From an uncultured Desulfobacterium sp. (GTDB taxonomy: Bacteria; Desulfobacterota; DSM-4660; Desulfatiglandales; Desulfatiglandaceae), in the NCBI GenBank assembly GCA_900258555.1, contig LT984854.1, positions 608,195 to 672,194 of the forward strand: a DNA stretch of 64,000 nucleotides, given 5' to 3'. The position numbers and the translations under genes were made by a program. Positions 11,793 through 38,609 of the stretch are shown here, one piece after another. Each line of letters starts with the position of its first letter. The first letter of the stretch is position 1. The notes under the pieces were generated by a model, which was not told the origin of the DNA, ran no database searches, and saw only the letters and a program-made list of their open reading frames with translations.

Positions 11793-11803
11793 GAGGAAAG
11801 ACC

Positions 11804-18232: not shown

Positions 18233-18729
18233 GAGTGCTGATCCGAAACACCGCCCTCAATGGGCAGCCGCTGGAAAGCGACGGCGAAATCTTCACCGGG
18301 GCGACGGTGACCGACGTGGTCCTGGCCATGAAAGGAGCCACGCTCTTTTCCGACCAGCGGGGCCTCGAGGATTACATCGATATGGTCCTGCGCAACGCCA
18401 AGATGCTGTCCGGCGTCGAGCTTACGGTCCGGGGCGATACGCCGGAGGAAAAGGCCGCATCCTTCCTGGATGCGCTGATCAAACGCGGTCTTGCCGAGGT
18501 GCAGGGCGACAAACCGGCACGGATACCGATTCCCGCCTTGGTCTGGCAGGGCATCGACGCGGTCCGGCTCTCGGGGTTGACCAACATGCTCGACCGGCCG
18601 GTCGTCGCCCGGCTGGCCGGGGAGCTCGGATATCCCGATGCCGCGCGCTGGATCGAGGAGCATCCGAAGGAATACGCCGAGGGCGTCTTCCGCGGGTTCA
18701 TCGTCGATCCGCAGGGAGGGAAATCCTGA
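18229..18729 (+). CDS. DUF5049-like protein of the amidoligase cassette
   Basis: 166 residues. The last 60 ([38 protein letters not shown], then [10 protein letters not shown]) match the short DUF5049 domain common in phage genomes near amidoligase genes. The first 95 residues are a separate small domain ([38 protein letters not shown]) that I do not recognise. It overlaps the upstream and downstream genes (ATGA at 18229, TGATG at 18727), so expression is coupled to both enzymes. It may be an accessory or carrier protein; function unknown. Confidence 0.68.
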
Positions 18730-20243: not shown

Positions 20244-20522
20244 ATGGCCGCTGAAGAACGCTGGGTTGGCGTCGACGATGTGGCAGCCCACCTTGGGGTG
20301 GCCAAGGACTCGGTTTATAGATGGATCGATGAACGGGGGCTCCCTGCTCACCGTGTGGGACGGCTCTTTCGTTTCAAGCTATCCGAAATAGACGAGTGGG
20401 TGCGCCAAGACAACGAGCGAGAGAAGACTCCAAATTCCGTCCAAAGCCGACCCTCCTCGAAAACCCAGACGAATCGATCAACACCAAAGACACGTTCACG
20501 GAAGAGGGGCGGGAATGAGTAG
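20244..20522 (+). CDS. Excisionase-family helix-turn-helix DNA-binding protein
   Basis: 92 residues. The MerR/excisionase-type winged helix (HTH_17) covers about 6-58: WVGVDDVAAHLGVAKDSVYRWIDERG and then RVGRLFRFKLSEIDEWV. The basic Ser/Thr/Arg-rich tail is probably disordered. I chose ATG 20244, preceded by GAGAGGA, over the upstream GTG 20214. Its end overlaps the helicase start at 20515, so it leads the defence operon and probably autoregulates it through the adjacent dyad. Such HTH genes often precede DUF1156/DUF499 loci. Confidence 0.82.
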   Translation: MAAEERWVGVDDVAAHLGVAKDSVYRWIDERGLPAHRVGRLFRFKLSEIDEWVRQDNEREKTPNSVQSRPSSKTQTNRSTPKTRSRKRGGNE

Positions 20523-23500: not shown

Positions 23501-24039
23501 GGCTGGAAATTGCCAGAACTGGACCGGTCAAGCATGTGGGGACGGCCTTTGTCCTTGCTCCCGATGCCGACACCCAGGCCCAGCTCGCCGATCTGGCCGA
23601 CGAACTCGATCCGAATATCCGCCGGCAGAGCGAAATCGCTGCTGAGGACAAGGTTATTGAAGCGCTGGTCGCGGAGGGCTTCCCCCAGGACCGGATCGAG
23701 CGGGTCGGCCATCTGAAGTTGGGGTTCGACATCCGCGCTCACAAGATCGCCGATGAAGCCACCGGCGAGGTCTTCGTCAAGAGAGTCGAGGTCAAAGGAC
23801 GACTGCGGGGGCAGCCGGTGAGGCTGACCACCAATGAATGGTACAAGGCACAACAATTGGCCGAGACATACTGGTTGTACGTGGTTTGGAACCCTTTGGG
23901 AGATTCCCCTGAGCTTGTGAGTATCCATAATCCTGTTGCCAAACTCGATCACGCCAAGAGAGAGATCGTGGCGGCGAGGTTCTATGAAATTTCGGCGGAG
24001 GCGATTCTCGCTGCCAATGAACAAAGATACAAGAAATGA
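20515..24039 (+). CDS. SNF2-family helicase with C-terminal DUF3883
   Basis: 1174 residues. RecA1 of the SNF2/superfamily 2 motor contains DDPGAGKT (Walker A variant, about 135-142) and DEAH (about 234-237); RecA2 contains the LIFTEHRDT and RIHRIGQ motifs (about 520 and 606). A charged coiled coil near 410-495 is inserted between the lobes. About residues 1040-1160 form a DUF3883 nuclease-like fold (VEVKGR, LTTNEWYKAQQL, YWLYVVWNP). It resembles DrmD-type helicases of DISARM and those of DUF1156/DUF499 loci. The motor probably translocates on or remodels unmodified invading DNA. The start overlaps the HTH gene. Confidence 0.87.
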   Translation: MSSSLLTSQIGQRIFLPGHFDVPVVLEDARPLGSDDSAGYECRVRLPDGSLEEAVISAEEVVAVLGKGPDEVKAETPVDAEKLRLLIESARVRLAYAHDQQFAVSLSGIRTLPHQIEAVYQAMLPQPRLRFLLADDPGAGKTIMAGLLVKELKLREAIDRILILCPAPLTIQWQDEMLRWFGEPFDIIFSAVDQQQLTNPWQRSSQIIASIDYAKQEDVRERVWQQRWDLVIIDEAHKCSARTASGGQNRESKVATTKRYDLASRLTSQADHVLLLTATPHHGDEDKFAHFLRLIDPDLFPEPHRLGKQATAIRKDVFRLGKDSPWSLRRLKEDLKDANGKRLFPDRHTNTVTFCLNNDEYTLYKSVTAYINEFIPQQTGQRRSSAALTRTVLQRRLVSSTCAIHESIKRRLKKQEDLLEELEGLTPAQRAKRLAALQGRLPDAEQDEDDLDDAVRDQLVDEYTAALELEQLRAEISALKELVEQARKVRENANDSKLAALKKCLGEAQFMDLKDGRGKLLIFTEHRDTLGYVRDHLKRWGFSTCEIHGGMNPHERKRAQEVFRTGAQVCIATEAAGEGINLQFCHLMINYDMPWNPTRLEQRLGRIHRIGQERDCYAFNFVATDSEDGQPIVEGRILHRLLEKLDQMNEALEGRVFDVIGEVLSLNDVNLPDMLRDAAYDPRRLDEYLDQIDRINPAKLKEYEEATGIALARSHVDFSAFQRRNLEVEERRLMPRYVEAQFVAAAREVGLRIEPRADGLWRVEHVLADLRSERLRSVQKVGKAESSYRKITFHKHHLEQDAHVDAVLMGPGHPLYAAVDEKLNERLAGMIAGVGFFVDPLCREPYRIHLFEISIRGKDSKGNDVPLYGELVAVREERGHYEVIPSDILLNLAAHPHPPQKIEPTPTQAATDFLKRTYQLECRARCQSERQHFAHVCREYLEKSFKARIDRAQERAMLLAAEVFSKPEYKLPADEARKYVDELQRARRERLDGLKRLEIARTGPVKHVGTAFVLAPDADTQAQLADLADELDPNIRRQSEIAAEDKVIEALVAEGFPQDRIERVGHLKLGFDIRAHKIADEATGEVFVKRVEVKGRLRGQPVRLTTNEWYKAQQLAETYWLYVVWNPLGDSPELVSIHNPVAKLDHAKREIVAARFYEISAEAILAANEQRYKK

Positions 24040-24048
24040 GGTAGATAT

Positions 24049-24822
24049 ATGGCCAAAGAGCTGAAACATAAACCGCTGGTTGAAGCAATTTTGGAAATCA
24101 GGTGGAAGTTGCAAGGATCGCCTCCCGGACCACAGGTTGATCCTCATTACAAGCTGCTGTTGGGGCGTTTGTTTGATCGAATGCTCAAGGACTATCCCGA
24201 ACACGAGCAATTACCGACTGCCAACGTCCCTGACGAGTTGGTAGGCCATGTCGTTCAGCACCGTTTTCGTGTTGCAGCTAATTTATGGCCTCTGGTTCAG
24301 ATCGGCCCGGGTATTTTCACAGTCAATTCAACCGCCGATTACACATGGCCTGACTTTCGGCCCCGTGCCTTGACAGCCATTGAGAAACTGTTCGACGCAC
24401 ATCCGAAGGTGGGGGAACTGAAAATAACTAACTTGATTTTGCGATATATCGATGCAGTGGATTTCGACTTCGGGGTTAGCAACATATTCGAATTTTTAAG
24501 TGACAAATTAAAGTTGAACGTATCGCTGCCGGACACCCTCTTCACGGATACCGGAGTCGAAAACAAACCAAACAGCTTTACATGGCAGTGTTCCTTCAAA
24601 TGTCAGAATCCAAAAGGTTTGATCAATATTCGATTTGCGACGGGTCAAAAGAGCAATGTTCCCGCGGTGGTTTGGGAAACTACGGTCGAATCAGCAGGTG
24701 AGGACGTACCCGAGATGCCGAAAGCCTTCGATGGCTGGCTCGATGCCGCCCACGACATTACGGATGACTGGTTTTTTAAAATGATCGAAGGCGAACTTGA
24801 AAGGAGGTTCTCAGGTGAATAG
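24049..24822 (+). CDS. TIGR04255 family protein
   Basis: 257 residues. The opening HKPLVEAILEIRW and later YIDAVDF segments are typical of the sporadically distributed TIGR04255 family found in defence islands and mobile regions. It is an alpha/beta protein with no catalytic motif that I recognise. The ATG lies ten bases after the helicase stop with GAGG upstream. Its end overlaps the next gene, whose ribosome site (AAAGGAGG) sits inside it. The AT-richer composition compared with the helicase suggests the operon was assembled from parts. Confidence 0.72.
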   Translation: MAKELKHKPLVEAILEIRWKLQGSPPGPQVDPHYKLLLGRLFDRMLKDYPEHEQLPTANVPDELVGHVVQHRFRVAANLWPLVQIGPGIFTVNSTADYTWPDFRPRALTAIEKLFDAHPKVGELKITNLILRYIDAVDFDFGVSNIFEFLSDKLKLNVSLPDTLFTDTGVENKPNSFTWQCSFKCQNPKGLINIRFATGQKSNVPAVVWETTVESAGEDVPEMPKAFDGWLDAAHDITDDWFFKMIEGELERRFSGE

Positions 24823-25192
24823 CACATATACAGTTGACCATTTGTACAAAAGTCAAATTCCTGATGCTCCTTCAACCGGTTTCTGGCATGAGAGCCATGC
24901 TGAACAGCCTGCGAAATTCCTTGATCTGCCGCATATCGCCAAAGTGGTAGGGTTAGCATTTTCGCTAGCAGTCTCGCCGGTCACAGCAATAACCGACCCA
25001 TGGCTTGTCGAGAGGCGGCGACGTGATGCTGTGGTAACAATGTCGATCTACCAAGAAGTATTAGGCCGTTTTATATCGCGAGCCGAAGCGTTGCGGATTG
25101 CCAGGAAGATTCTTGAGCAGGCTGAGCGAGAACGGCTCATTTTCGCTGAATATGAGGCCGCTCGAGGTGTACAGTGGGAGAATCATCCATGA
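24815..25192 (+). CDS. Defence-operon protein, unknown
   Basis: 125 residues from GTG 24815, which sits seven bases after AAAGGAGG; the TTG at 24797 in the same frame would include that site. The N-terminal half is hydrophobic (VVGLAFSLAVSPVTAITDPWL), perhaps one membrane or buried helix. The C-terminal half is charged helix (EALRIARKILEQAERERLIF). No family recognised. The stop overlaps the following ATG by four bases, and the previous gene overlaps it by eight, so it is produced together with the neighbouring proteins. Confidence 0.6.
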   Translation: MNSTYTVDHLYKSQIPDAPSTGFWHESHAEQPAKFLDLPHIAKVVGLAFSLAVSPVTAITDPWLVERRRRDAVVTMSIYQEVLGRFISRAEALRIARKILEQAERERLIFAEYEAARGVQWENHP

Positions 25193-25845
25193 TTTATGAA
25201 TTTCCCGACACATCCATGCGTATTCGTCAGGGAGACATATTTGTAGGTCTCCCCAGAGTCGATATGTCACTCAACAACGTACTGATTGTCAGTGAAGCCG
25301 GCGAACGTGTTGCAAAGTGGGCGGAGATAGCCGCTAAGGGCGACCCGGTCAATATCATCGTTCCCGTCCGGCCTGTTGCTGCAATAGTAGCCACGCAGGA
25401 TTGCGATGCAGTCCGAAGCCGGGATATCACTCTTTGTGAGATCAGAAGCTTCAGAGACGTGGAACGAAAAAGCAAAGACACGACCTCGGCAAAGAGTTGG
25501 AAGAATTTGATTACCCAACATGCGCGCATCAATCAGAAATGGTTTTATCTTCCCTCGGACGATAGGGTGGGGTTTTTGGAAAAAATGGCTGTTGATTTCA
25601 TGGTGACCCTGCGTGTGCCAAGGACCGAACTCGAGGAACTGCGAGATCTTCGAAAAGGGCGGCTTAACCGGCTCGCAGACGAACATTTTCGCGAGCGGAT
25701 CGGAGAATTTTTCAGACGTTACCCATACGACGAATGGTATCCGCTCGATCAGGATGAGTTGAAGGCATACCTGACTGAATACCCTGATACCAAACCGTTT
25801 CCTTGGCAAGAGGCTGGGGTCGTGGATGGTGGAGTCAAGAAATGA
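25189..25845 (+). CDS. GD/CD-motif defence protein, homologous to the RR output domain at 34796
   Basis: 218 residues from ATG 25189, which overlaps the previous stop; GTG 25174 is less likely. Ordered motifs: IRQGDIF (G15-D16), VATQDCDA (C72-D73), MAVDF (about 133) and RLADEHFRERI (about 161-171). The same four motifs, in the same order and with similar spacing after CD, form the C-terminal half of the response regulator encoded at 34796. I know of this pattern in uncharacterised defence-island proteins but cannot name an activity; the conserved Cys-Asp could be catalytic. It overlaps a 31-codon ORF downstream. Confidence 0.68.
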   Translation: MIYEFPDTSMRIRQGDIFVGLPRVDMSLNNVLIVSEAGERVAKWAEIAAKGDPVNIIVPVRPVAAIVATQDCDAVRSRDITLCEIRSFRDVERKSKDTTSAKSWKNLITQHARINQKWFYLPSDDRVGFLEKMAVDFMVTLRVPRTELEELRDLRKGRLNRLADEHFRERIGEFFRRYPYDEWYPLDQDELKAYLTEYPDTKPFPWQEAGVVDGGVKK

Positions 25846-25937
25846 CCCCTTCACTGTATATTGAGTTTCTTTCTGACCGTGGCTTCGGTCGGGACAGCGG
25901 TCTTGAACGAACACTCCGCCAAAGGAGGGACCTATGA
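25842..25937 (+). CDS. 31-residue coupling ORF
   Basis: ATG 25842 overlaps the stop of the preceding gene (ATGA), and its own TGA overlaps the ATG of the next gene at 25934. GGAG lies eight bases upstream. The peptide is Arg-rich (11 charged residues) and matches nothing I know. The strong AAAGGAGG site of the next gene is inside it. It bridges the only gap in the operon and may serve translational coupling, or be a remnant. Confidence 0.4.
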   Translation: MTPSLYIEFLSDRGFGRDSGLERTLRQRRDL

Positions 25938-26242
25938 GCTTTGAGCGACATGGCTACAACTTCGAAGGGGCCTTCACTTCAGCAAATCAGCTCGAAGCAA
26001 GGGCCGGGGTGTATGTGATCTGGTGTAAGAACGGCGAGACATGGACGTGCCTGGATGTAGGCGAGTCGCACAATGTGCAGGATCGTCTGCTCAATCACGA
26101 CCGTGCCGACCAGTGGCGGCAGAAATGCCGAGGCACGATCTACTATGCGGCGCATTACACGCCGAACCTCCAGCAGACCGGACGAATCCAGATTGAAAGC
26201 AGGCTCCGTCAGCTTGAAAGACCTCTTTGTGGAGAACGCTGA
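25934..26242 (+). CDS. GIY-YIG-like nuclease-fold protein
   Basis: 102 residues. AGVYVIW (about 24-30) and LDVGES (about 41-46) occupy the GIY and YIG strand positions. VQDRLLNHDR (about 49-58) carries the conserved Arg and His region, and RIQIESRLR (about 85-93) carries the expected Glu. The tyrosines are replaced (GVY kept, second motif DVG), so activity is uncertain. Length suits a minimal domain with no DNA-binding extension. AAAGGAGG precedes the ATG. It ends one base before the probable start of the methyltransferase gene. Confidence 0.62.
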   Translation: MSFERHGYNFEGAFTSANQLEARAGVYVIWCKNGETWTCLDVGESHNVQDRLLNHDRADQWRQKCRGTIYYAAHYTPNLQQTGRIQIESRLRQLERPLCGER

Positions 26243-26243
26243 A

Positions 26244-29135
26244 TTGAACGACCGTAGATTGATAGAGGACTTCCTGCCCGTAAATTCGGTCGGAGAGGCG
26301 GCTTCGAGTGAGCCCCGCACAAAAGGGCACATCTCTACCTTGCATGTGTGGCGTGCGAGAAGGCCCCTGGTGGCGTGCCGGGCCGCGGTATACGGGGCTT
26401 TAGTGCCGGCGTCGCGGTTCATTCCGGAAAACGGTCCGGACAACAAGAAACAGAGCCTGGGCAGGGCCAATGCGGCCAAATTCTTTGAGCGGCTCTGCAA
26501 GTATCCGGGCAATCCCACTGTAATCAAAGACGCGCAGAGGCACATTCTGGAAGCCCATGCCGAGCGTTTGACCAAAGAGACGGGCAAGAGTGTTACGGTC
26601 GAGGATATCGAGGTAGGAGAAGCGCCGCGTCCTAAGGTGCTGGATATGTTCGCTGGCGGCGGGGCCATTCCGATTGAAGCGGCAAGGATGGGCTGTGATT
26701 CACATGCCCTTGACCTCAATCCAGTCGCGTATCTTATCGAGCTTTGCACCGTTACCTTCCCGCAGCAATTCGGGGCGAAACTGGCCGATGATATCGAGTT
26801 GTGGGGGAAGAACATTCTCAAGCGGACGCAAGATGCCGTGTCCGACGTTCTTGCACGCATACCGGTTGCACGAAAGCAACAGAGGGCGATCCAAAGAACC
26901 CTTGGGGATGAAAATGAAACGCCAGCCGACGAGTATTCTGTCGTCGCCTACTACTGGACGCGGACCATCCCATGTCCGAATCCGCAGTGCAAAGGAACCG
27001 TACCGCTCTATCGACAGACTTGGTTGAGGAACAAATCCTCCGGTTACGTGGCCTTGAAGCCGGTACCGGACATGGGCAGACGCTTCATGCGTTTTCAGGT
27101 GGTCGATGCTCGGTCCGCATCGGCGCTCGGCTTTGATCCGTCCTCCGGGAGCGCGGGATCATCCACGGCATGCCCCTTCTGTCAAACCGCTCTCGATGGT
27201 CCCTATGTCCGCAGGTATGGCGATGAGAGAGGCTTCGGCCAGCAGCTCATGTGCGTGATCGCGCTCAATCCCGACGGCCCTGGCAAGTTGTATCTTGTCG
27301 ATGAATCGCTTGCGGCCATAGAGGCCGAGCATCAGGCCATGTCCGAACACCGTGCGGCGGAGATTGAGCGCGAGCTTGGACCGAGCAGCCTTGATGAGGA
27401 GATTCCCCCGACCGGTAACGCCGGGCTTGCCACAGGGAACAGCTATCTATATGGCATCCGGACGTTCCGCCAGGCTTTTACCCCACGCCAGCGGTACATC
27501 CTCCTGACCATGGCCCGTGAGGTGCATCGTGCATACCAAGAGATGACTAAACAGGGAATAGAGCCGGAACGGGCCCACGCTATCGCGACGTATCTTGGCG
27601 TCTGGGTCAGCCGTTTGACTGATCGATGCAATGGGTTGGCCAGATGGAATAACGTCGGTGAGAAGATTGAAAGTCTTACTTCAATGAAACGGTTCGCGAT
27701 GACATGGGATTTCCCTGAAGTCAATATTTTTGGAGGTGGCTCAGGCGATGCTCTCAGCCAACTCGCTTTCATGACTTCCGCCGTGCGCCGCGAAGGCCAG
27801 TTTAATAACCCGTCAGTAGTTGTGCGCGGTTCCGCCGCTGAACTGCCATATGACAACGGTATCTTCGATGCGGTGATTACCGATCCCCCTTACTACGACA
27901 ACGAAAGCTACTCAGAGCTTTCCGATGTCTGTTACGTCTGGCTGCGGCCGACCATCGGCTTTCTCTACCCTGAACATTTCGCTGGCCAACTGACGCCGAA
28001 GAAAAAGGAATGCGTCGCCGCAGCTTATCGCCAGGGGGGAAAGCAGCAGGCGCGGAACTATTACGAAGACACCCTGTTTCAGTCGTTGCGAGAAGCCCAT
28101 CGCGTCACGAAACCTGGCGGCATCCTGATCGTCGTGTATGCCCATAAGACCACTCTCGGTTGGGCGACCCTTGTGGATGCGCTTCGACGCGCCGGTTATG
28201 AAGTCGCCGAGGCCTGGCCTCTTACCACGGAAACAAAGGCCCGGGTGGCTCACCAAGGAGACGCGGCTCTTGCCTCAAGTATTTTTCTCGTAGCCCGGCG
28301 GCGCGAAGCTCCTGAGACAGGCTCGTATGAGGAGCGAGTCCGTCAAGACCTGGAGAAGATCGTCCGCGAGCGCGTGGATTCGCTCTGGAAAATGGGCATC
28401 ACCGGCGCGGACCTGGTTATTGCCGCCGTTGGCGCTGGGTTGCGCGCCTTCACCCGCTTTTCCCGAGTTGAGTACGCCAATGGCGAGGAGGTCCCGGCCG
28501 AGAAGTTTTTGGCCGAGGTGGAAGGAGTCGTGCTGGAGACGCTCCTGGAAAAGATTTTCGGTGTGACCGGAAGTGGCGTCGCAGCGGTGGACGGACCGAG
28601 CCGGTTCTACGTGCTCTGGCGCTACGCATACAAGGTGGCCGAGTTGGAAGCGGGCGAGGCCATCGTTTTTACCTACGGCCAGAATGTGGAGCTGGATGGC
28701 CAGAACGGCCTTTCGTCCGGAAGCCGCGCCCTGGCCGAAAAGAAGAAGGGCAAGTACCGACTGTTTGACTTTTCCGAACGGGGGGACGACGAGAAATTGG
28801 GCATGCCCAAGGATGACGACAAGCCCGCCCCGCTGATCGATATCCTGCACCGTATCCTCTGGCTTGTGGAAAACGAACCCCGTAAGCTTAATGACTTCCT
28901 CGACGAGGCAAGGCCGGACCGGGAGCGCCTGCGCTTGGTGGCTCAAGCCCTGGCCGGGACCGCGCTGGTCGGCAGGAAGGACGACGGGCCGGAACACACC
29001 GTGGCGACAACACCTGCAGAAGCCGCCGCGCTCAACAAACTCGTCGCCAACTGGCGGGCCCTTATCGACCAGCGGTTGGCCGCCAGAGAAGGGACCTTGT
29101 TTGAACTTATGCGAAATTCGGAGGCCAAAAAGTGA
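26244..29135 (+). CDS. DUF1156 DNA methyltransferase of a defence system
   Basis: About 963 residues. DUF1156 covers the N-terminus (NDRRLIEDFLPVNSVGE, KGHISTLHVWRARRPL). SAM motif I is DMFAGGGAIPIEA (about 134) and the amino-methyltransferase catalytic motif is DPPYYDN (about 547), predicting N6-adenine or N4-cytosine modification. Cys pairs near 244 and 311 (CPNPQC, CPFC) form a zinc ribbon. The frame is open upstream, but TTG 26244 fits best: GGAG is nine bases before it, it follows the previous stop, and it gives the family N-terminus. It should mark self DNA for this locus. It overlaps the DUF499 gene. Confidence 0.85.
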   Translation: MNDRRLIEDFLPVNSVGEAASSEPRTKGHISTLHVWRARRPLVACRAAVYGALVPASRFIPENGPDNKKQSLGRANAAKFFERLCKYPGNPTVIKDAQRHILEAHAERLTKETGKSVTVEDIEVGEAPRPKVLDMFAGGGAIPIEAARMGCDSHALDLNPVAYLIELCTVTFPQQFGAKLADDIELWGKNILKRTQDAVSDVLARIPVARKQQRAIQRTLGDENETPADEYSVVAYYWTRTIPCPNPQCKGTVPLYRQTWLRNKSSGYVALKPVPDMGRRFMRFQVVDARSASALGFDPSSGSAGSSTACPFCQTALDGPYVRRYGDERGFGQQLMCVIALNPDGPGKLYLVDESLAAIEAEHQAMSEHRAAEIERELGPSSLDEEIPPTGNAGLATGNSYLYGIRTFRQAFTPRQRYILLTMAREVHRAYQEMTKQGIEPERAHAIATYLGVWVSRLTDRCNGLARWNNVGEKIESLTSMKRFAMTWDFPEVNIFGGGSGDALSQLAFMTSAVRREGQFNNPSVVVRGSAAELPYDNGIFDAVITDPPYYDNESYSELSDVCYVWLRPTIGFLYPEHFAGQLTPKKKECVAAAYRQGGKQQARNYYEDTLFQSLREAHRVTKPGGILIVVYAHKTTLGWATLVDALRRAGYEVAEAWPLTTETKARVAHQGDAALASSIFLVARRREAPETGSYEERVRQDLEKIVRERVDSLWKMGITGADLVIAAVGAGLRAFTRFSRVEYANGEEVPAEKFLAEVEGVVLETLLEKIFGVTGSGVAAVDGPSRFYVLWRYAYKVAELEAGEAIVFTYGQNVELDGQNGLSSGSRALAEKKKGKYRLFDFSERGDDEKLGMPKDDDKPAPLIDILHRILWLVENEPRKLNDFLDEARPDRERLRLVAQALAGTALVGRKDDGPEHTVATTPAEAAALNKLVANWRALIDQRLAAREGTLFELMRNSEAKK

Positions 29136-32044
29136 ACACACATGCACTTCGTCCCTGGACCGACCTGGTCAAGCTCCATCCCGACGTGGAAGCGGGTGCG
29201 TTGACCGAGGCGGTGTTCGCCATCGATCTCGGAGCCATCGCCGCAGGTGACCCAAACGTTCCCGTGGTCAACCGGGACCCGGAAGCCTTTTTTCGGGCGA
29301 CATACCTCACAGCCGATCTGCGAAAGCTACTGGAGGAAGTGCTGGCATCCCTTTCCGGCAAGTCCGGTTACAACCGGGTTTTGAAACTCAGGGTGCCCTT
29401 CGGCGGGGGGAAGTCACACACCCTGGCGTCGCTGTTTCATGCAGCGCGAAGGCGAGAGGCCCTGGACGGCATCCCGGAGGCTAAAGAATTCGCCCGACCC
29501 GGCAAGGTGGCCGTAGCGGTTTTCGACGGTGAGAAGTTCGATGCGCGTAACGGGAAGACGCTGGATGACGGCCCCACGATTCAGACCATGTGGGGGTGGA
29601 TCGCCTGGCAGATTGACTCCGAAAAGGCTTTCCCCATTGTGGCTGATCATGACAAGGACCGCGTTGCCCCGGGCGGGGATGTGATCCGCGAGCTGCTCAT
29701 CAAGGGGGCTGGCGGCAGGCCGGTTCTCATCCTCCTCGATGAAGTGCTCAAATACATGGAGCGCTCCGCTGCGGTCAGTGTCCTTGATTCCACCCTCCAG
29801 CGCCAGGCCAAGGATTTCTTCCAGAACCTGACCGTCGAGGTGGCCGGGAGCGAGAAGGCCGCGCTCGTCTATTCCCTCACCTGGAGCGCGAGGGAGGCCC
29901 TGGGGAATGTTGGTCTACTTGCCGAGATCGACAAGCTCGCATCTCGTGTGGACCAACTCAGGGAACCTGTCTCAGGAGACGAGATACTGCCCATCTTGCA
30001 GCGGCGTCTTCTGGGGGGCGCCCCCGACGCTTCCACAGCCACCGAGGTGTCCACGGCATATCAAGATGTAGTGACCGGCATGCAGCGGGCTCATGCCGAA
30101 ACCCCCTCCGAGCGCCAGCAAGCCGAGGAGGAAGGCCGTCTGCTGCGGGATCGGATGCGGGCGGCGTATCCATTCCATCCCGCGCTCATCGACATCATGA
30201 GGGAACGTTGGACAGCGGTGGATGCTTTTCAGCGGACCCGCGGCGCGCTGCGTTTTCTTGCCTCCTGCATGCATTCCCTCAAGAAGAACGGCGGAGCAAA
30301 GGCACTTCTTGGGCCTGGAGACGTGCCGGTGAAGGACGTGGATGTCCGGGTGAAGATGCTTAAAGAGCTGGGTGTCCAGAACGACTACGACCCGGTCATC
30401 ACGGCGGACATCGACGGTCCGAACGCCCGGGCAAAACGTATCGACGACCGGATGTCGCGTGAAACCCCTGCGCTTGCAAGTGTGAAGCCCGCCACACGCA
30501 TCGCCACGGCCATCCTTCTGTATTCGTTTGGCGGATTGAGGCGTGAGGGCTCGGGCAGCGACGAGACACTGCCGCCCGGCGTTACGGAAAACGAACTGCT
30601 TGCGGCCTGCGTCGGTCCCGACCTGGACAACATCACGGCCACCGCCGTCTTGTCCGAGCTTCGTAATACATGCCTGTACCTGCATTACGACGGTGTCCGG
30701 TACTGCTTCAAGAAGGACCCGAATGTCACCAAGTTGATCGAGGACGCGGAGCAGACCGTTGCCCGGGAGGATTCCCAGGCGCGGGGACACGGCCCGGTCC
30801 GCAGCATGATCAAGGAGATGCTGGATGCCCGCCTGGCCGGACACCACACAGCCATCGTGTGGCCGGCGAAGAGCCAAGACATTCCCGATGAGGACCCACG
30901 CTTCCTCGTCGCCTACCTGCCCCTTGAGTTCGCCGCCGAGGGCAAGGCGGAACAGGAACGCCAGGCCAAGGAGTACCTGACCAAATACGGGGATCGTCCC
31001 CGGCGCTTCCGCAACGGCCTGGGCCTCGCAATACCCGAGAAGAAACAGATTGAGGCCCTGCGGCGCGCTGTCCGATACCTGCTGGCCATCGACCGCGTGG
31101 AAGCCAAGAAGCAGCAACTTCGACTCACCAAGGACCAGCTTGATCAACTCCGGGAGAGGAAACGCACCGAACAGGCTGCCGCTGAGTCATGCTTCCGGGA
31201 ACTTTACACGGCCGCATGGTTGCCTCGGGTCCAGGACGGCGAGTTGGAAATAGAGAAAGTGGAAAGGGGCGGTCGACCGCTTCAGGCGACCGGCGTCCAC
31301 GAACGGATCATGGAACTTCTCACCAGCGTGGGAACGCCGCGCATTCACGGATCGGTTACGCCGCGGAAAATCGCCGAGCGAGTGCGGCTCGGCGAATCCT
31401 TAGTCGAGGGGGAGCCGCTGCTCATGGGCATCAAGGCGTCCGATGTGCTTGAATCGTTCTTCAGAGATATTGCGCCGCCCCGGTTGGAATCCGCATCTGT
31501 CCTGCGCAAGGGGATCGCTCGCGGTGTATCGGAAAGCGTCTTCGCCTATGCGAGTGGAGGCAGCCCTGTTCTTGGTCTTGATGGAAGATACCAGGTAAAT
31601 CGCGACAAGGTGATTCTCGGCCGCTCCATTGCCGATGACGAAGTCGATTTCGATTCCGGCTTCCTCATAATGCCGGCAGCGATCCCGGAAGCCCCGGCGG
31701 CCCAACCCGCAGGCGCTTTCCCCGTCGATACAGGCGCAGTTCCTCCCCCGAGCGTCCAAGAGGCCCCGGCCGGAATCGGATCGGGAACCGGTACCGGACC
31801 AATTACGGCGGGTACGGAGGTTTCCGGTCGAAGGAAACGGGTCGCCATGACATTTGAAGCCACTAGGGAACAGGTCTTCAAGGCGTTTCCGGCCATCGCG
31901 AACCTGGCCGACAAGTCCGACGGAGCCAAGGTGCGAATCCGCATCGAGGGGTCATCGGCTGCAGGCTTCGATTCATCCTGGCTGCGCAATGCCGTGGACG
32001 AACCGCTTGACGAGGCAGATATCGAACGGACCACCGAGGAATGA
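29132..32044 (+). CDS. DUF499 AAA-like ATPase of a defence system
   Basis: 970 residues. Walker A is PFGGGKSHT (about 89-97) and Walker B LILLDEVLKYM (about 199-209). The arrangement matches DUF499 proteins, which pair with DUF1156 methyltransferases in anti-phage loci and resemble BREX P-loop proteins in general layout. The C-terminal about 100 residues after a Pro/Ala/Gly linker (about 850-895) are a small separate domain (RKRVAMTFEATREQVFKAF). The GTG start overlaps the methyltransferase stop (GTGA). It probably supplies ATP-driven assembly or sensing for the complex. Confidence 0.85.
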   Translation: MNTHALRPWTDLVKLHPDVEAGALTEAVFAIDLGAIAAGDPNVPVVNRDPEAFFRATYLTADLRKLLEEVLASLSGKSGYNRVLKLRVPFGGGKSHTLASLFHAARRREALDGIPEAKEFARPGKVAVAVFDGEKFDARNGKTLDDGPTIQTMWGWIAWQIDSEKAFPIVADHDKDRVAPGGDVIRELLIKGAGGRPVLILLDEVLKYMERSAAVSVLDSTLQRQAKDFFQNLTVEVAGSEKAALVYSLTWSAREALGNVGLLAEIDKLASRVDQLREPVSGDEILPILQRRLLGGAPDASTATEVSTAYQDVVTGMQRAHAETPSERQQAEEEGRLLRDRMRAAYPFHPALIDIMRERWTAVDAFQRTRGALRFLASCMHSLKKNGGAKALLGPGDVPVKDVDVRVKMLKELGVQNDYDPVITADIDGPNARAKRIDDRMSRETPALASVKPATRIATAILLYSFGGLRREGSGSDETLPPGVTENELLAACVGPDLDNITATAVLSELRNTCLYLHYDGVRYCFKKDPNVTKLIEDAEQTVAREDSQARGHGPVRSMIKEMLDARLAGHHTAIVWPAKSQDIPDEDPRFLVAYLPLEFAAEGKAEQERQAKEYLTKYGDRPRRFRNGLGLAIPEKKQIEALRRAVRYLLAIDRVEAKKQQLRLTKDQLDQLRERKRTEQAAAESCFRELYTAAWLPRVQDGELEIEKVERGGRPLQATGVHERIMELLTSVGTPRIHGSVTPRKIAERVRLGESLVEGEPLLMGIKASDVLESFFRDIAPPRLESASVLRKGIARGVSESVFAYASGGSPVLGLDGRYQVNRDKVILGRSIADDEVDFDSGFLIMPAAIPEAPAAQPAGAFPVDTGAVPPPSVQEAPAGIGSGTGTGPITAGTEVSGRRKRVAMTFEATREQVFKAFPAIANLADKSDGAKVRIRIEGSSAAGFDSSWLRNAVDEPLDEADIERTTEE

Positions 32045-32122: not shown

Positions 32123-32638
32123 ATGGACACAGTGAGTAAAGAGACAAGAAGCCGAATGATGTCTTCCGTTCGGGCAAGGAATACGAAACTCGAAATGGAG
32201 GTGAGACGGCGGCTCTTTGCTATGGGTTTCCGATATCGTTTGCATGAAAAAAGCCTTCCCGGAAAACCGGATATGGTCTTTCCGAAATACAGTGCCGTTC
32301 TTTTCGTGCATGGGTGCTTCTGGCACCATCACGGGTGCCATCTTTCCGGATTACCGGCAACCCGCCGAGTTTGGTGGAAAGAAAAACTTGAGGGAAACAG
32401 AAAGCGGGATTCGAATGTCGTCTCCGAATTAACTAACCTCGGTTGGAGAGTCATCATCATATGGGAGTGCAGTTTTCGGAAAGCGAAAACGGATCGTGCG
32501 GAGGCCTTGGATCGAATTGCCGAATACGCGCGTGCTTTTTTAACATCTGACCGAAAATTGTTGGAGATCCCGCAATCGTCTCCTGACCGGATGGGCGATA
32601 CACCGGAAAAAGGCAAGGCACATGGCAAGAACAAGTAA
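32123..32638 (+). CDS. vsr: Very-short-patch-repair-type endonuclease (Vsr family)
   Basis: 171 residues. RSRMMSSVRARNTKLE opens the Vsr fold, PGKPDMVFP holds the catalytic Asp (about 51), FVHGCFWHHHGC (about 61-72) holds the zinc and catalytic His residues, and WWKEKLEGNRKRD is the conserved helix. Classical Vsr nicks T:G mismatches made by deamination at Dcm sites; a dcm-like gene lies 3.3 kb downstream on the same transcript. In defence loci Vsr-fold proteins may instead be the restricting nuclease. ATG 32123 is preferred to TTG 32120. The last 17 bases overlap the kinase gene. Confidence 0.88.
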   Translation: MDTVSKETRSRMMSSVRARNTKLEMEVRRRLFAMGFRYRLHEKSLPGKPDMVFPKYSAVLFVHGCFWHHHGCHLSGLPATRRVWWKEKLEGNRKRDSNVVSELTNLGWRVIIIWECSFRKAKTDRAEALDRIAEYARAFLTSDRKLLEIPQSSPDRMGDTPEKGKAHGKNK

Positions 32639-34778
32639 TGAAAAGAGCGGGTTCGACCGGATACCATTCCGGATGCATCCAAGGGTGTTTGCGGCCCTGG
32701 GTGCGGACCTTGTAACCAATGACGTGGTTGCAGTTATCGAGTTGGTCAAAAATTCCTACGATGCTTTTGCTCGCAACGTCTGGTTACGATTCCGTGACGA
32801 TCCGTCCAGGGGCGCTTTTTTGGAAATAGAAGACGACGGGAACGGCATGACCCGAGATATCATCGAGCAGGTTTGGTGTCTCGTTGCAACTCCGTTCAAA
32901 GAGCATAACCCGCTAACAAAAAGCGGCCAGAAGGTGCGTCGCGTTGCCGGTGAAAAGGGTCTCGGCCGCCTTTCCGTTGCACGTTTAGGCGAGCGCCTTG
33001 ACATGCTCACCCAGGCTCCCGGTGCTCCGTGCTGGGAAGTCAATGTCAATTGGTCCGATATTTCTGCGGGGGATGACCTGTCAGGGAGTTATGCGGAGTG
33101 TCGATCATGCCCGGAAGTTACGCCATTCGAAAAGTCCGGCACACTCCTTCGCATTCTTGGTCTGAAAGGACAGTGGGACAATGATCGGATATCCGATCTT
33201 GAAGATAACCTCGCCCGCTTGATTTCACCGTTTTCAGACCTTGGTGATTTCAATATTTTCCTGTCCGGTTTCGGAGATAGCGAAATCGAGGAGGTGAAGA
33301 TAGAGTCTCCCGAATTTCTGGCCAAGCCGAAATACTCCGTCAGCGGTGGTGCCGATGGAAACGGCAATGTAAGAGGAACATATCGATTTGCTCCCATTTC
33401 GGGGGGGAGGGTCAGGGAGAAGGAACTGAAAATCGCATGGGAACAAATATATGATGTCATTCAGGATCGAACAAGATTCCGGTTTTCCGATGACAGAGCG
33501 AGTTGCGGTCCATTTACCTTCGAAATCCGGGCGTGGGACATAGCTGCCGACGACACGCAGGAAATTGCCGAACGGTTCGATTTTCAGAAGAGCCAGGTGA
33601 GAAAGGCAATCCGCGCACATAAAGGCATATCGGTTTACCGAAACGGTGTGCTGGTGTTGCCGAAGTCGGATAATGCCCGCGATTGGCTGGGCCTTGATTT
33701 GAGGCGTGTAAGTAAAGTAGGAACAAGGTTGAGCACAAGCCAGGTTGTCGGCTACGTTTCAATAACTGCCGAAGACAACCCTCGGATAGAAGACACGAGT
33801 GACCGAGAACGTCTGGCATCATGTATCGAAGTGGCTGAGTTCGAGGAAATTCTTAAGGCCGTGGTGGCGCTTCTTGAAAACGAACGTGACGAAGACCGAA
33901 TCAAACCGGATCGCGAACGACCGATGGACGATCTTTTCGCGGCATTGTCAGCCGAAGACCTTGTTGCGGAAGTTATTGCGCTTTCGGATGAGGGTGCAGA
34001 TGCATCCGAAGCGATCCCGTTGCTCCGTGCGTTCAGCAGTTCTCTGGATGCAGCACGCAAGACGATTCAGGAGCGCTTTATTTATTATAGCCGTTTGGCA
34101 ACAGTGGGGACCATTGCCCAGATGTTGGTTCATGAAATCCGCAACAGAACAACGGCATTCGGCAGCTTCCTGGATTTCATCAAAAACCGGTTCGGTCCGT
34201 TCAAAGACAAAGATATCGAGGAAGAATTTCGCTGTACGGATAACGCAGTGAACGCCCTGGAGCGTCTCGCCGACACTTTTGCTCCTCTTGCGAGTCGCGG
34301 TTTCAGACGCCGTAAGCGGCAATCAATCTTGGAGGATCAAATCAGGGATTGCCTTGCGCTGCATCGTGGTGAGATCGAGAAGAAATACGTTCGGTGCAAC
34401 GTACCGGATTCCATAACCGCGGTAGCTGTTGATCCCGGTGAACTTGATGCCATCATCCTGAATTTGGTTACGAATGCCGTCTACTGGATGGGGGATGTCC
34501 CCAAAGAGAATAGAGAATTGGAATTCCGCCTCATCCCGATAAATAACGGAGAACGCGTGCGCGTATGGATTCACGATACGGGACCCGGTCTGAATGAAGA
34601 GGACGTGGAGAAAGTCTTCTGGCCCGGTGTGACCAGGAAACCCGGCGGAATCGGGATGGGCCTTACCGTGGCTTCGGAATTGGTGGCTGCATACGGGGGT
34701 CGAATGTCAACGAAACACCCCGGCACGAAAGGCGGAGCATCATTTGCATTCGATTTGCCGCTGCGTAAACAGGGCTGA
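32622..34778 (+). CDS. Cytosolic kinase: MORC/Hsp90-like GHKL-S5 module fused to a histidine kinase
   Basis: 718 residues without membrane segments. The N-terminal GHKL ATPase has ELVKNSYDA (N44), DDGNGM (71-76) and GEKGLGRLSVARLG (110-123). An S5-like region follows (GISVYRNGVLVLP near 335; DWLGLDLRRVSKVGTRLS). The second half is a histidine kinase: VHEIRN with H504, NLVTNAV near 613, DTGPGL near 652 and GGIGMGLTVASEL near 677. Two complete ATP sites in one chain are unusual. GHKL-S5 proteins of the MORC type are known beside Dcm and Vsr in restriction loci. The cognate regulator is encoded 17 bases downstream. The signal is probably DNA or another ligand felt by the first module. Confidence 0.82.
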   Translation: MARTSNEKSGFDRIPFRMHPRVFAALGADLVTNDVVAVIELVKNSYDAFARNVWLRFRDDPSRGAFLEIEDDGNGMTRDIIEQVWCLVATPFKEHNPLTKSGQKVRRVAGEKGLGRLSVARLGERLDMLTQAPGAPCWEVNVNWSDISAGDDLSGSYAECRSCPEVTPFEKSGTLLRILGLKGQWDNDRISDLEDNLARLISPFSDLGDFNIFLSGFGDSEIEEVKIESPEFLAKPKYSVSGGADGNGNVRGTYRFAPISGGRVREKELKIAWEQIYDVIQDRTRFRFSDDRASCGPFTFEIRAWDIAADDTQEIAERFDFQKSQVRKAIRAHKGISVYRNGVLVLPKSDNARDWLGLDLRRVSKVGTRLSTSQVVGYVSITAEDNPRIEDTSDRERLASCIEVAEFEEILKAVVALLENERDEDRIKPDRERPMDDLFAALSAEDLVAEVIALSDEGADASEAIPLLRAFSSSLDAARKTIQERFIYYSRLATVGTIAQMLVHEIRNRTTAFGSFLDFIKNRFGPFKDKDIEEEFRCTDNAVNALERLADTFAPLASRGFRRRKRQSILEDQIRDCLALHRGEIEKKYVRCNVPDSITAVAVDPGELDAIILNLVTNAVYWMGDVPKENRELEFRLIPINNGERVRVWIHDTGPGLNEEDVEKVFWPGVTRKPGGIGMGLTVASELVAAYGGRMSTKHPGTKGGASFAFDLPLRKQG

Positions 34779-34795
34779 AAGCCGGAGGCAATCAC

Positions 34796-35926
34796 ATGCT
34801 GAAACTATTATTCATCGAAGACGAGCCGAGTGCCGTCGAACCCGTTGTGAATTTACTCAAGCGGGAGCAGACGGACATTCAGTGCGAGGTGACGCTCTTT
34901 GCCGATGCGGAGAGCAGGGTAGTGACCCTCCGTCCCGACATTGTTATACTCGATCTCCTGGTCGGCGGTGCCACCCCAGAGCCTGAATCTGCAGGGCTGG
35001 GTACTCGCGATTTCATTTGGAATCAACATTTCTGTCCGCTTGTTATTTATTCGGCTAGACCGGATATTCACGATGAAAAATATGAGCCGCATCCATTCGT
35101 GAAGAGTATTCAGAAAGGAAAAGATAGCCCCCGGAAAGTAATGGACGCACTCGGCGAACTGCGTCCGCAGGTCGAGGCATTGACAGAAGCAGAAGAGCAT
35201 GTCAGGCAGTCCTTTTCCTGTGCCATGAGGGACGTCGCGCCTTATGCTTTTGAAGCTTTTACGGATGCTGCACAGAGAACGGAGACAATAAAGCGGTCGG
35301 GAAGACGCCGCCTTGCGGCTTTAATGGATGGGCTTTCACGGGACGCAACAATGCTCGCCAGTTGGGAGCAGTATCTTTGCCCTCCGGTTTCCTCCGACAT
35401 CAAACTTGGCGATGTTCTGAGAAAGGCGGACGGGAAGTGGGACGACCCGTCTTCATTCCGCGTAGCTCTTACCCCCTCCTGTGACCTTGTAGCCTCGAAC
35501 GGGCGCGTACCGAAAGTGGACAGGGTTCTCGCCGCAAAGTGCTGCTCGATGAGGGTCGGGCTGGACCTTACAAGCCTGAAAGGCATGGGGCTTACGAAAC
35601 TGAAGGACCGACTGCCCGGTACCATGCTCTCACACGGATATTTCGAGGCTACAATCCCTTTCCCGTGCCTTAAGGGGAGAATTCCGACTATGGCTGCCGA
35701 TCTGCGTGATTTGGAGTTCATCTCTGTCGGTGACATAGGTGTGGAGAACAGACCGTTCCTGCGAGTTGCTTCTATTGACAGCCCTTTTCGAGAGATGGTC
35801 GCATGGGCATATCTGCACACCGCTTGTCGGCCAGGGTTACCGGATCGGGATTTTAATTCGTGGCGTGACGAGATTATGAGCACTCTTGGAAATAATGTGG
35901 CGACGAACAGACATGAAAGCTGTTGA
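34796..35926 (+). CDS. Response regulator with GD/CD output domain
   Basis: 376 residues. The receiver (about 1-125) shows FIEDEP, the phosphoacceptor VILDLL (D53), YSARP and a Lys near 105; a helix links it to an output domain from about 190. That domain has KLGDVL (G205-D206), TPSCDL (C229-D230), MAADL (299) and RVASIDSPFRE (323-333), matching the stand-alone protein at 25189. There is no HTH, GGDEF or nuclease signature. Gene order says the kinase at 32622 phosphorylates it. The output is probably enzymatic or toxic and not transcriptional; this is inference. It overlaps the Dcm gene. Confidence 0.75.
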   Translation: MLKLLFIEDEPSAVEPVVNLLKREQTDIQCEVTLFADAESRVVTLRPDIVILDLLVGGATPEPESAGLGTRDFIWNQHFCPLVIYSARPDIHDEKYEPHPFVKSIQKGKDSPRKVMDALGELRPQVEALTEAEEHVRQSFSCAMRDVAPYAFEAFTDAAQRTETIKRSGRRRLAALMDGLSRDATMLASWEQYLCPPVSSDIKLGDVLRKADGKWDDPSSFRVALTPSCDLVASNGRVPKVDRVLAAKCCSMRVGLDLTSLKGMGLTKLKDRLPGTMLSHGYFEATIPFPCLKGRIPTMAADLRDLEFISVGDIGVENRPFLRVASIDSPFREMVAWAYLHTACRPGLPDRDFNSWRDEIMSTLGNNVATNRHESC

Positions 35927-36941
35927 TTTTTTTTGTGGGGCAGGAGGCCTTACCCGCGGCTTGCTCGATGCAGGTATAAAAGTCATTACCGGTTTTGACC
36001 GCGACGAACGGTGCCGCCACACTTACGAGCATAACAATCCCGGGGTTCGGTTCATTGCGGCTGATATCAGAGAAATGGGCTTGAAGGACCTTTTGGCCAA
36101 GAGCAGACTGCGAAAATATGATGACGTACTGTTTGCCGGATGTGCTCCTTGCCAACCATTCAGTTCACAGAGAAAGGGAAACGGAGATAGACAAGATACG
36201 ACATTGCTATGCGAATTCGGTCGAATAGTGGAGGATGCCTTGCCTGGATATGTTTTGGTTGAAAATGTTCCGGGAATTGCAAAAGTGCGCGGATTCAGTA
36301 CTTTCAGACGCTTCCTTCAGATGTTGGAAACGAAAGGCTATTCATACGTTTATGACATTCTCGATGCAAAACGTTTTGGCGTACCACAGAACAGACGCCG
36401 TCTTGTTTTGCTGGCAAGCAGACACTTTCGCCCATCTTTGCCTCAACCCAAATATGGAGACTCTTTTCGGCCATTCATGACAGTACGGCAAGCCATTTCT
36501 CATTTTCCGGAAATTCGTGCAGGAGAATGTCACAAGGACATTCCCAACCATGTGGCAGCATCCATTGAAGCGTTGAACCTTGAACGCCTCCGCCATACGC
36601 CGCATGATGGTGGTGACCGAAGATCATGGCCAATTCATTTGAGACTTGAATGTCACAAAGGGAATTATGAAGGTCATACGGATGTGTATGGCCGAATGGC
36701 CTGGGACCGTCCCGCTCCCGCGCTTACAGGCAGATGCCATAGTATTTCAAATGGCAGATATGGTCATCCCGAGCAGGATAGGGCTATTTCCTTGCGCGAA
36801 GCGGCAGCGATTCAATCATTTCCGGATGGTTATGTTTTCTTCGGGTCCAAGAAACACGTTGCGATGCAGATCGGTAACGCTGTACCGGTTCGACTTGCAG
36901 AGCATATCGGAAAACATATTATCGATCTTCGGAGTAGTTGA
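35913..36941 (+). CDS. dcm: C5-cytosine DNA methyltransferase (Dcm-type)
   Basis: 342 residues with the ordered C5 motifs: FFCGAGGLTRGL (I), GCAPCQPFSSQRKG with catalytic Cys (IV), VLVENVPG (VI), QNRRRLVLLAS (VIII), a target-recognition stretch around 215-275, and GNAVPVRLAEHIG (X). ATG 35913 gives the standard N-terminus; ATG 35895 is an alternative and neither has a strong ribosome site, so coupling to the overlapping regulator gene is likely. It should methylate self DNA at a site the Vsr-like protein or the kinase module recognises. Composition is clearly AT-richer than the genes before 24 kb. Confidence 0.88.
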   Translation: MKAVDFFCGAGGLTRGLLDAGIKVITGFDRDERCRHTYEHNNPGVRFIAADIREMGLKDLLAKSRLRKYDDVLFAGCAPCQPFSSQRKGNGDRQDTTLLCEFGRIVEDALPGYVLVENVPGIAKVRGFSTFRRFLQMLETKGYSYVYDILDAKRFGVPQNRRRLVLLASRHFRPSLPQPKYGDSFRPFMTVRQAISHFPEIRAGECHKDIPNHVAASIEALNLERLRHTPHDGGDRRSWPIHLRLECHKGNYEGHTDVYGRMAWDRPAPALTGRCHSISNGRYGHPEQDRAISLREAAAIQSFPDGYVFFGSKKHVAMQIGNAVPVRLAEHIGKHIIDLRSS

Positions 36942-37581: not shown

Positions 37582-38091
37582 CTAGGGGCTTTCGGGAAGG
37601 CAAATGTCACCTCCCGACCATTGCTCGCATGGAATAGAAAAAGGTTGTGGTTCTATTTTCTCATCTGAGATGGCTGCAAAATCTTGTTGGATGACGGACT
37701 TAATTTCTTCTTGAGGAATACCCTTAATGGTTGAATAGACAAGCCTGATAAGCCGGTCATGTGCCTTTGAAATACTTTGGGTTTCGTTCTCCCAGCGTGA
37801 AACCGTGGCATTATCAGTTCCAATAAATTCAGCGAACTTTTTGCCTGTAAGCCCAAGATTTTTACGTAAGAATTTGATTTCCTTGCCATCAAGAATGGAT
37901 CTCTTCTTCAGTAATATTTGGCCTATCAAACTATGTAATTTAGTCACTGCCGGAATACTTACTATTTCTTCGCCGCAGGAGCACCTATGTATTTCAATGC
38001 CCCTCAAGTAAACATTATCCAGACCACATTCTTTGTAATGATGGTCCGCCGTCGCACAAGGCATTTCAGTTTTGCAAGTTGGACATTTCAT
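37582..38091 (-). CDS. MqsA-like antitoxin (YgiT zinc finger plus HTH)
   Basis: 169 residues. MKCPTCKTEM and HRCSCGEEI carry the four Cys of a YgiT-type zinc finger (about residues 3-40). A Xre-type HTH follows (about 72-105: RKNLGLTGKKFAEFIG, ATVSRWENE). The C-terminal about 50 residues are polar. In MqsA-like antitoxins the finger neutralises the toxin and the HTH represses the operon. The toxin candidate lies just upstream at 38095 with a three-base gap. Unlike classic MqsRA, the partner here is a DUF4258 protein. Confidence 0.82.
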   Translation of the reverse strand: MKCPTCKTEMPCATADHHYKECGLDNVYLRGIEIHRCSCGEEIVSIPAVTKLHSLIGQILLKKRSILDGKEIKFLRKNLGLTGKKFAEFIGTDNATVSRWENETQSISKAHDRLIRLVYSTIKGIPQEEIKSVIQQDFAAISDEKIEPQPFSIPCEQWSGGDICLPESP

Positions 38092-38094
38092 AAT

Positions 38095-38379
38095 TCAATC
38101 GCCCTTCACAGTTATGCATAAGACTGAGCCCTTATTTTCGTCAATGGCCGCAACAAAAACCAATTCCTCGCCTTCAATATCAACCCCTTTAACCGTGCAA
38201 ATCCAATTACCATGTTCCTTATCCTCTTCGATCTCAATGACTTCACCCCAATGGACAACATTCAGGATATCGTCAACCGTTACATCACGTTCAGCCATCC
38301 TTTCACGGCAATGTTTTGTGGTATTAAAGTACAAGTTTGCAAAACGGCGCAAATAAGTCTTTGCTTGAGCCTTGTTCAT
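38095..38379 (-). CDS. DUF4258 toxin candidate
   Basis: 94 residues. HCRERMAERDVTVDDILNVVHWGEVIE followed by WICTVKGVDIEGEELVFVAAID matches DUF4258, a small family usually encoded before YgiT-finger antitoxins and thought to be an RNase-like toxin of the RelE/MqsR fold class. ATG 38379 is preferred; TTG 38394 would add five residues. Its stop is three bases before the antitoxin ATG. The order toxin then antitoxin is the MqsRA order. Conserved His and Arg residues suitable for RNA cleavage are present, but activity is not shown. Confidence 0.75.
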   Translation of the reverse strand: MNKAQAKTYLRRFANLYFNTTKHCRERMAERDVTVDDILNVVHWGEVIEIEEDKEHGNWICTVKGVDIEGEELVFVAAIDENKGSVLCITVKGD

Positions 38380-38609
38380 AATATCGGCCTGCAAACGGAT
38401 TTAGTCAAGATTTTTTGACGTTGCATCAAACTTTTTTATCTTTAACGAGAACAGATTTGGGAGGCTATGGCATTTTAAATAACCGGTCAATGATTTTTCT
38501 TAAAGTCCTACCCGATTACTTGTTAATATCAACCGCTTACAAGCAGTGGGCAGGGTCCCAATCGGATGGCCGTGCCTATCCTGGACATATTGGTTGAACG
38601 GCACACAGA

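Follow-up and report, generated by a model that had tools for sequence, protein, structure and literature searches.

What would a sensor kinase and a response regulator do in an operon that otherwise encodes a cytosine methyltransferase and a very-short-patch-repair endonuclease? This question is raised by four genes, vsr, hk (sensor kinase), rr (response regulator) and dcm, in a 64,000-nucleotide stretch of DNA (the window) from an uncultured Desulfobacterium sp. (GCA_900258555.1, contig LT984854.1, positions 608,195 to 672,194 of the forward strand). Hundreds of kinase/regulator pairs occur at restriction-modification loci, and their role and output are not known. As described below, kinase, regulator and Dcm form a conserved core, and the regulator ends in a domain with a predicted toxin fold that is replaced in relatives by separate HNH or metallo-beta-lactamase genes. 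From this we lean, by a modest degree, towards a phosphorelay through which incoming DNA would be sensed and a toxin- or nuclease-like effector controlled, while Dcm marks self.

A four-gene unit and its conserved core

All four genes lie on the plus strand between 32120 and 36941 (Table 1), with a 17-base overlap between vsr and hk, a 17-base gap between hk and rr, and a 41-base overlap between rr and dcm, which shortens to 32 or 14 bases if Dcm starts at the ATG at 35895 or 35913. Gene calls are based on open reading frames, and vsr is taken to start at the TTG at 32120, with an in-frame ATG at 32123. Same-strand genes that overlap or abut in this way make up one operon-like unit, in agreement with an earlier reading of the letters alone (the sequence-only reading), which had also described the unit as holding no classical restriction enzyme and no Z1, PLD or AIPR gene. 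Family identities were checked with Pfam, NCBIfam and PADLOC; in these scans Vsr was the only nuclease family seen in the unit, there was no dedicated restriction endonuclease beside the methylase, as would define a Type II restriction-modification system, and PADLOC had no system model specific to the kinase or the regulator. The methylase has catalytic C89, ENV at 126-128 and QxRxR, motifs that are invariant in 67 relatives, and it is the sole PF00145 match in the host genome.

Genomes were scanned with the kinase N-terminus only, seeded throughout by the single conserved peptide pattern EL[VI]KN[SA]YD, and the best 80 loci were kept, giving 81 with the window (individual loci carry L numbers below). 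As neighbouring genes took no part in this seed, they had no influence on which loci were chosen. Neighbours within 6 kb were assigned with hidden Markov models for the four proteins, and because contig ends truncate many of the loci, the resulting counts are lower bounds. A same-strand regulator lies directly downstream of the kinase at 65 of the 81 loci, with a median gap of -1 base, and Dcm and Vsr are near the kinase at 63 and 44 loci, respectively. Of 198 genomes of the phylum only 32 carry Vsr, in one or two copies each, and the company that Vsr and Dcm keep with the kinase is therefore not due to chance. The order vsr-hk-rr-dcm is repeated in at least five other genomes (L023, L029, L030, L035 and L037), with no fifth gene found in common among same-order loci, and L033 has the same order with Vsr reversed; the co-occurrence elsewhere that the sequence-only reading had proposed as a check was thus observed. 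In the kinase tree, these five loci and the window form one supported clade spanning several phyla, and the nearest relative of the window kinase (81% identity, L029) comes from a Myxococcota assembly. This clade, of 14 rows, takes in Planctomycetota, Thermodesulfobacteriota, Chloroflexota, Bacteroidota, Actinomycetota and Bacillota as well.

Co-variation was measured as the Spearman correlation of pairwise protein distances (mirror-tree) over loci having the genes, with shared ancestry left in the values. Across 41 loci the correlation was 0.73 for kinase and regulator, 0.47 for kinase and Dcm and 0.38 for regulator and Dcm, with none of 500 shuffles as high, while for kinase and Vsr it was 0.07 over 27 loci, a value that 98 of 500 shuffles reached or exceeded. 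Because the first three co-vary and Vsr does not, the core of the unit is kinase, regulator and Dcm. The sequence-only reading had held that a Vsr-Dcm pair found widely without the kinase and regulator would speak against the unit. This was the case in one direction, as Vsr (32 of 198 genomes) is far commoner in the phylum than this regulator, which has matches in 9 of 395 genomes.

These results bear on an alternative in which the unit is an ATP-dependent restriction system, with the paraMORC-like kinase as a DNA-scanning motor, Vsr as the cutting subunit and the regulator merely tuning the kinase. The window Vsr is intact: it matches E. coli Vsr (PDB 1cw0, E 1.4e-36, residues 3-135) and keeps D51, F67, W68, H69, W86 and D97, as judged by conservation over 49 relatives. 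Of these, D51, F67, W68, H69 and W86 are the catalytic and T:G-recognition residues of Vsr, and their retention is what would be expected of a repair enzyme. In favor of such a system are the likeness of the kinase N-terminus to the BbrUII/HgiDII restriction family and the occurrence of paraMORCs in restriction-modification operons with Vsr (PMC2292703). Against it, Vsr and kinase do not co-vary, and at 37 of the 81 loci no Vsr was found nearby, whereas the regulator is nearly always present, and we consider this explanation improbable. Vsr as the effector nuclease was dropped as the leading view on the same grounds. At two loci (L040 and L049) no Vsr was seen and a short MutY/MIG-type glycosylase, with 1kea among its full-length matches, stands between dcm and hk. 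As Vsr is commoner than the regulator in the phylum and does not co-vary with the kinase, it is probably an accessory, interchangeable enzyme for mismatch repair of deaminated 5-methylcytosine and not an effector, a view that the kept residues and the glycosylase swap also favor. Glycosylases of this type were also observed at two further loci without Vsr, L066 (4354-4974) and L078 (12304-12927).

A predicted phosphorelay and its output domain

The kinase combines an N-terminal GHKL ATPase domain of paraMORC/HgiDII-like type with a DHp helix and a C-terminal HATPase_c domain, and 12 divergent homologues align over its full length. Over 87 kinases, E40, N44, D71, G73, G75, K112, G113 and G115 of the N-terminal domain are invariant, as are H504 and N614, N618, G654, G678 and G680 of the C-terminal ATP site; both ATP sites of the window kinase are intact, the C-terminal one with N614/D652/G654/G676-680. 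The N-terminus has a match (E 9e-19) to NF050001, the BbrUII/HgiDII restriction family, and this match supports a role as a putative DNA-handling input domain. In the regulator, D53 is invariant over 54 sequences, with D9 conserved in 98% and K107 in 91%. H504 and D53, the residues for which the sequence-only reading had suggested replacement experiments, are therefore the right phosphorelay residues, and with acceptor histidine, acceptor aspartate and kinase ATP site all in place, we infer from the sequences that phosphate would pass from kinase to regulator. By sequence, the receiver is near-invisible (PF00072 E 0.013), and it is clear in the AF2 model.

The structural claims made here refer to predicted models. 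No convincing Pfam family was found for the output domain in any of 41 members, and a PDB sequence search with its profile returned nothing meaningful. When the domain was modelled alone, the top Foldseek match was MazF (E 7e-4), and the best 50 rows from VIA were all MazF or CcdB, the best with Z 10.6 to 9ikd (root-mean-square deviation 2.5, 102 of 107 residues) and CcdB reaching 10.0. The output domain is thus predicted to have a MazF/CcdB toxin fold. It carries two conserved motifs, PxCD and RxGxP, of which C229 is invariant. A sequence link to PemK was considered and dropped, as the profile probability was 22%, and the claim is limited to the fold.

Similar output motifs were found beyond the immediate relatives of the window regulator. 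A second regulator family (c4, 21 loci) joins a receiver to [PAV]xCD in 20 of 21 members and aligns with the window family by hhalign at 98.7%. Three loci carrying PF19192 regulators were fetched as well; they show the order Dcm-kinase-regulator, in one case followed by Vsr, their kinases match the window-family profile (best E 5e-85), and two of the three regulators have an SPACD motif. As a separate observation, the gene at 25174-25845 in the window, which lies between hmaA and hmaB, encodes a 223-residue protein in which hhalign matches a TQDCD stretch to the output domain (85%, with E 6e-6 in one comparison); it matched no Pfam family, and no relatives were found in plasmids or the 297 genomes searched.

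At eight loci the regulator is reduced to a receiver of 210-243 residues, and PxCD is absent in the seven inspected (L084, L086, L097, L106, L014, L090 and L101). The next gene after these receivers belongs to an HNH cluster at five of the eight (L084, L086, L088, L097 and L106), has a metallo-beta-lactamase fold at two (L014 and L090), and encodes a 210-residue protein of no assigned family at L101. The methylase is of N6 type at L084, L086, L088, L097, L106 and L014 and is Dcm at L090 and L101. It is mainly because receiver-only relatives have HNH or metallo-beta-lactamase genes instead that the PxCD domain is read as an effector.

As most response regulators act on promoters, the pair might instead work as an expression switch that senses DNA damage or infection, with the regulator tuning transcription of the methylase and neighboring defense genes, perhaps Hma, in the manner of CapK/CapS. 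The overlap of the regulator gene with dcm would fit, as would the report that a GHKL kinase activated by single-stranded DNA regulates immune operons (PMC13373217). However, the predicted MazF/CcdB fold is not a recognized DNA-binding fold of response regulators, the domain is exchanged for nuclease-like genes in relatives, the genes lie inside the operon, and promoter-like sites in the region are at chance level (5 seen against 4.2 expected; a terminator scan was also at chance level). We therefore regard transcriptional control as an unlikely role, and continue with an effector released by the regulator.

Mobility, genomic setting and proposed mechanism

Among 60 relatives of the host that were sampled, not one has the kinase at E 1e-60, and the unit therefore looks acquired. 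Kinase relatives are carried on plasmids, and their distribution is patchy and crosses phyla. By tblastn no regulator homologue was detected in plasmids, although plasmid kinases carry divergent regulators, and the Enterobacter mori pair had no match in E. coli DNA. The best reading of the unit is a horizontally moving, two-component module coupled to DNA modification. Patchy distribution, plasmid carriage and a toxin-fold output domain would also suit a selfish or housekeeping module of Dcm methylation, repair and post-segregational killing that mobile elements keep without any anti-phage role. Other kinase relatives sit with MvaI/BcnI endonuclease, HNH, HerA, Z1/MORC/AIPR or phosphorothioation-like genes, and the recurrence of Z1/AIPR/MORC, type II endonuclease and phosphorothioation-like neighbors fits defense. 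The two roles are not exclusive, and we give a purely selfish one a small chance. We infer that the module is most likely anti-phage or anti-plasmid.

Two loci depart from the usual arrangement. In a Methylorubrum plasmid (L016, 69-11418), the kinase directly follows genes annotated as DNA adenine methylase, cysteine desulfurase, DUF4007 and PAPS-reductase family, and precedes a 673-residue protein without a Pfam family, possibly a phosphorothioation-linked version. At L091 (3090-10957), a 1876-residue protein follows the kinase in place of the regulator.

In the window, the unit starts 75 bases 3' of a complete Hma (DUF499/DUF1156) defense operon. Its guanine-plus-cytosine content of 0.49-0.54 is lower than the 0.57-0.63 of hmaB and hmaC immediately upstream, which marks the unit as a separate compositional block. 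Relatives of HmaB and HmaC formed no recurrent cluster among 93 kinase loci, so that the unit is not a constant part of Hma loci; on this ground and on composition, membership of the Hma operon was rejected. Three extra genes without a Pfam family lie between hmaA and hmaB (24049-24822, 24797-25192 and the PxCD-like gene noted above). Just downstream of the unit, on the minus strand (37582-38394), a DUF4258 protein and an MqsA-like helix-turn-helix antitoxin likely form a toxin-antitoxin pair. Farther upstream are a phage-tail-like or contractile-injection cluster (329-15397; M15 peptidase, base V, gp25 and baseplate J proteins) and, beside it, amidoligase, glutamine amidotransferase and gamma-glutamyl cyclotransferase genes in a row (17237-20083).

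Table 1 Features of the four-gene unit, its neighbor operon and the glycosylases at related loci
Feature	Position	Strand	Support
vsr, very-short-patch-repair endonuclease, 172 aa	32120-32638	+	PF03852 1e-31, TIGR00632 7e-44
hk, sensor kinase, 718 aa	32622-34778	+	
N-terminal GHKL domain, residues 36-149	32727-33068	+	HATPase_c_3 5e-15
H504, phospho-acceptor histidine, motif HEIRN	34131-34133	+	87/87 kinases
C-terminal catalytic HATPase_c, residues 604-715	34431-34766	+	PF02518 3.9e-21
rr, response regulator, 376 aa: receiver, long helical linker, output domain with predicted toxin fold	34796-35926	+	AF2 mean pLDDT 92.4
Receiver domain, residues 1-125	34796-35170	+	VIA Z 15.7 to 3cu5
D53, phospho-acceptor aspartate	34952-34954	+	54/54 regulators
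Output domain, residues 187-376, predicted MazF/CcdB fold	35354-35923	+	AF2 pLDDT 93.2
PxCD motif (P227, C229, D230)	35474-35485	+	C229 54/54, P227 52/54, D230 47/54
RxGxP motif (R345, G347, P349)	35828-35842	+	49/54, 52/54, 50/54
dcm, C5-cytosine DNA methyltransferase, 351 aa	35886-36941	+	PF00145 3.9e-57
Hma (Type-1 BREX-related) operon, outside the unit	20515-32044	+	PADLOC, helicase domains
hmaA	20515-24039	+	
hmaB	26073-29135	+	PADLOC HmaB 2e-112
hmaC	29132-32044	+	PADLOC HmaC 8e-114
MutY/MIG-type glycosylase, L040	8197-8922		between dcm and hk
MutY/MIG-type glycosylase, L049	8272-8985		between dcm and hk

In the mechanism that we favor, Dcm would mark host DNA, and the cytoplasmic kinase, with a paraMORC-type GHKL ATPase clamp in the sensor position, would probably read the state of DNA, responding to unmarked or damaged incoming molecules. 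Once activated, its C-terminal kinase domain would phosphorylate H504, from which phosphate would pass to D53 of the regulator, and this would free the MazF/CcdB-fold output domain as the effector, causing growth arrest or attack on nucleic acid. The effector would act through the invariant PxCD...RxGxP surface and not through the MazF catalytic pair, and Vsr would repair T:G mismatches arising from deamination of the 5-methylcytosine that Dcm makes. Together, the predicted toxin fold, the invariant motif, the replacement of the output domain by nuclease genes and the minimal four-gene form make this a testable mechanism. If true, restriction-modification, two-component signaling and toxin-like effectors would be joined in one small mobile unit, and a phosphorelay would be a bacterial means of telling self from foreign DNA, such as that of a phage.

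Several points weigh against this mechanism. The catalytic arginine and threonine of MazF have no conserved counterparts in the output domain: no arginine is conserved in 215-228, with R222 found in 14 of 54 regulators, and no column is conserved at 0.7 in residues 231-288. As the PemK profile match is also weak, the fold is no proof of toxicity, and binding may be all that CcdB/MazF-like barrels do. The unit lacks an antitoxin-like gene, so that the phosphorelay itself would have to restrain the effector. The exchange of the output domain for HNH or metallo-beta-lactamase genes is based on few loci, and four loci (L052, L054, L066 and L068) have neither Dcm nor Vsr within 6 kb.

A wider extension is more tentative, and we hold it to fall somewhat short of an even chance: bacteria and archaea would share a general modification-coupled phosphorelay defense whose paraMORC-type kinase reads DNA and whose receiver partner frees an exchangeable effector, either a fused PxCD domain of MazF/CcdB fold or a separate HNH or metallo-beta-lactamase protein. 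PxCD would then be a new effector domain of regulators, possibly standing alone in the Hma operon of the window.

Comparison with known systems

The sequence-only reading had thought a phosphorelay controlling restriction or cell death to be new. As stated, this does not hold, since kinase/regulator pairs at C5-methylase/Vsr restriction-modification loci were published in 2021 (Bellieny-Rabelo 2021, PMC8011034), with regulators lacking any other known domain, and Detocs (DtcA-DtcB-DtcC) is a two-component defense system (PMC11728103). Detocs shares the kinase-to-regulator circuit, but the window unit differs in having no DtcB-like buffer or third signaling gene, a methylase in the operon and a different output domain. 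GHKL kinases also control immune operons and the VapC toxin through STAS proteins and are activated by single-stranded DNA (PMC13373217). These CapK/CapS and VapKSC systems likewise place a GHKL kinase in defense or toxin loci; their target is a serine in the STAS protein, whereas the window unit would use a histidine-aspartate relay to a receiver domain.

Dcm-Vsr-MORC-Z1 loci (Iyer 2008, PMC2292703) and mza systems share the C5-methylase, Vsr and a MORC-like GHKL domain with the unit. Of their other genes (Z1, separate MORC, AIPR and PLD), none is in the unit and none was recognized among the scanned neighbors, and Z1 is near only 6 of the 81 kinase loci. Some relatives, such as L013 from Hymenobacter, combine the kinase pair with a second GHKL ATPase and a Z1 gene, recalling Dcm-Vsr-MORC-Z1. 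The output domain shares its predicted fold (Z about 10) with the MazF/PemK and CcdB toxins, from which it differs in its PxCD...RxGxP motif, its fusion to a receiver, the lack of an antitoxin gene and the unconserved MazF catalytic residues.

The closest described relatives are the HEF_HK/Response_reg_2 pairs (PMC8011034), which share the HATPase_c_3, DHp and HATPase_c architecture of the kinase, the adjacent regulator, the C5-methylase and Vsr neighbors, detectable kinase homology and, in two of three PF19192 regulators, the PxCD output motif. However, the window kinase is smaller (718 against about 1000 residues), as is the regulator (376 against about 600), and the kinase is on a separate tree branch. 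It has no match to PF19191 (HEF_HK) at E 0.1, with none at the locus at E<=10 and none in 12 relatives, and the regulator has none to PF19192 (Response_reg_2), for which, as a positive control, 3 of 369 genomes yielded loci above the cut-off. The unit was not filed under HEF_HK/Response_reg_2, as these models are unmatched despite the homology of kinase and output motif. In that paper, the output part is given no fold or role. In the open-licence literature we found no account of a MazF/CcdB fold for the output domain, of an invariant motif that three regulator families share, of the HNH/metallo-beta-lactamase exchange or of a kinase-regulator-Dcm core with accessory Vsr, and earlier description elsewhere is possible. 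In total, that paraMORC-type kinases and regulators occur together with C5-methylases and Vsr is already known from these pairs (PMC8011034), and what looks new is the toxin-like end of the regulator and the replacement of that end by nucleases.

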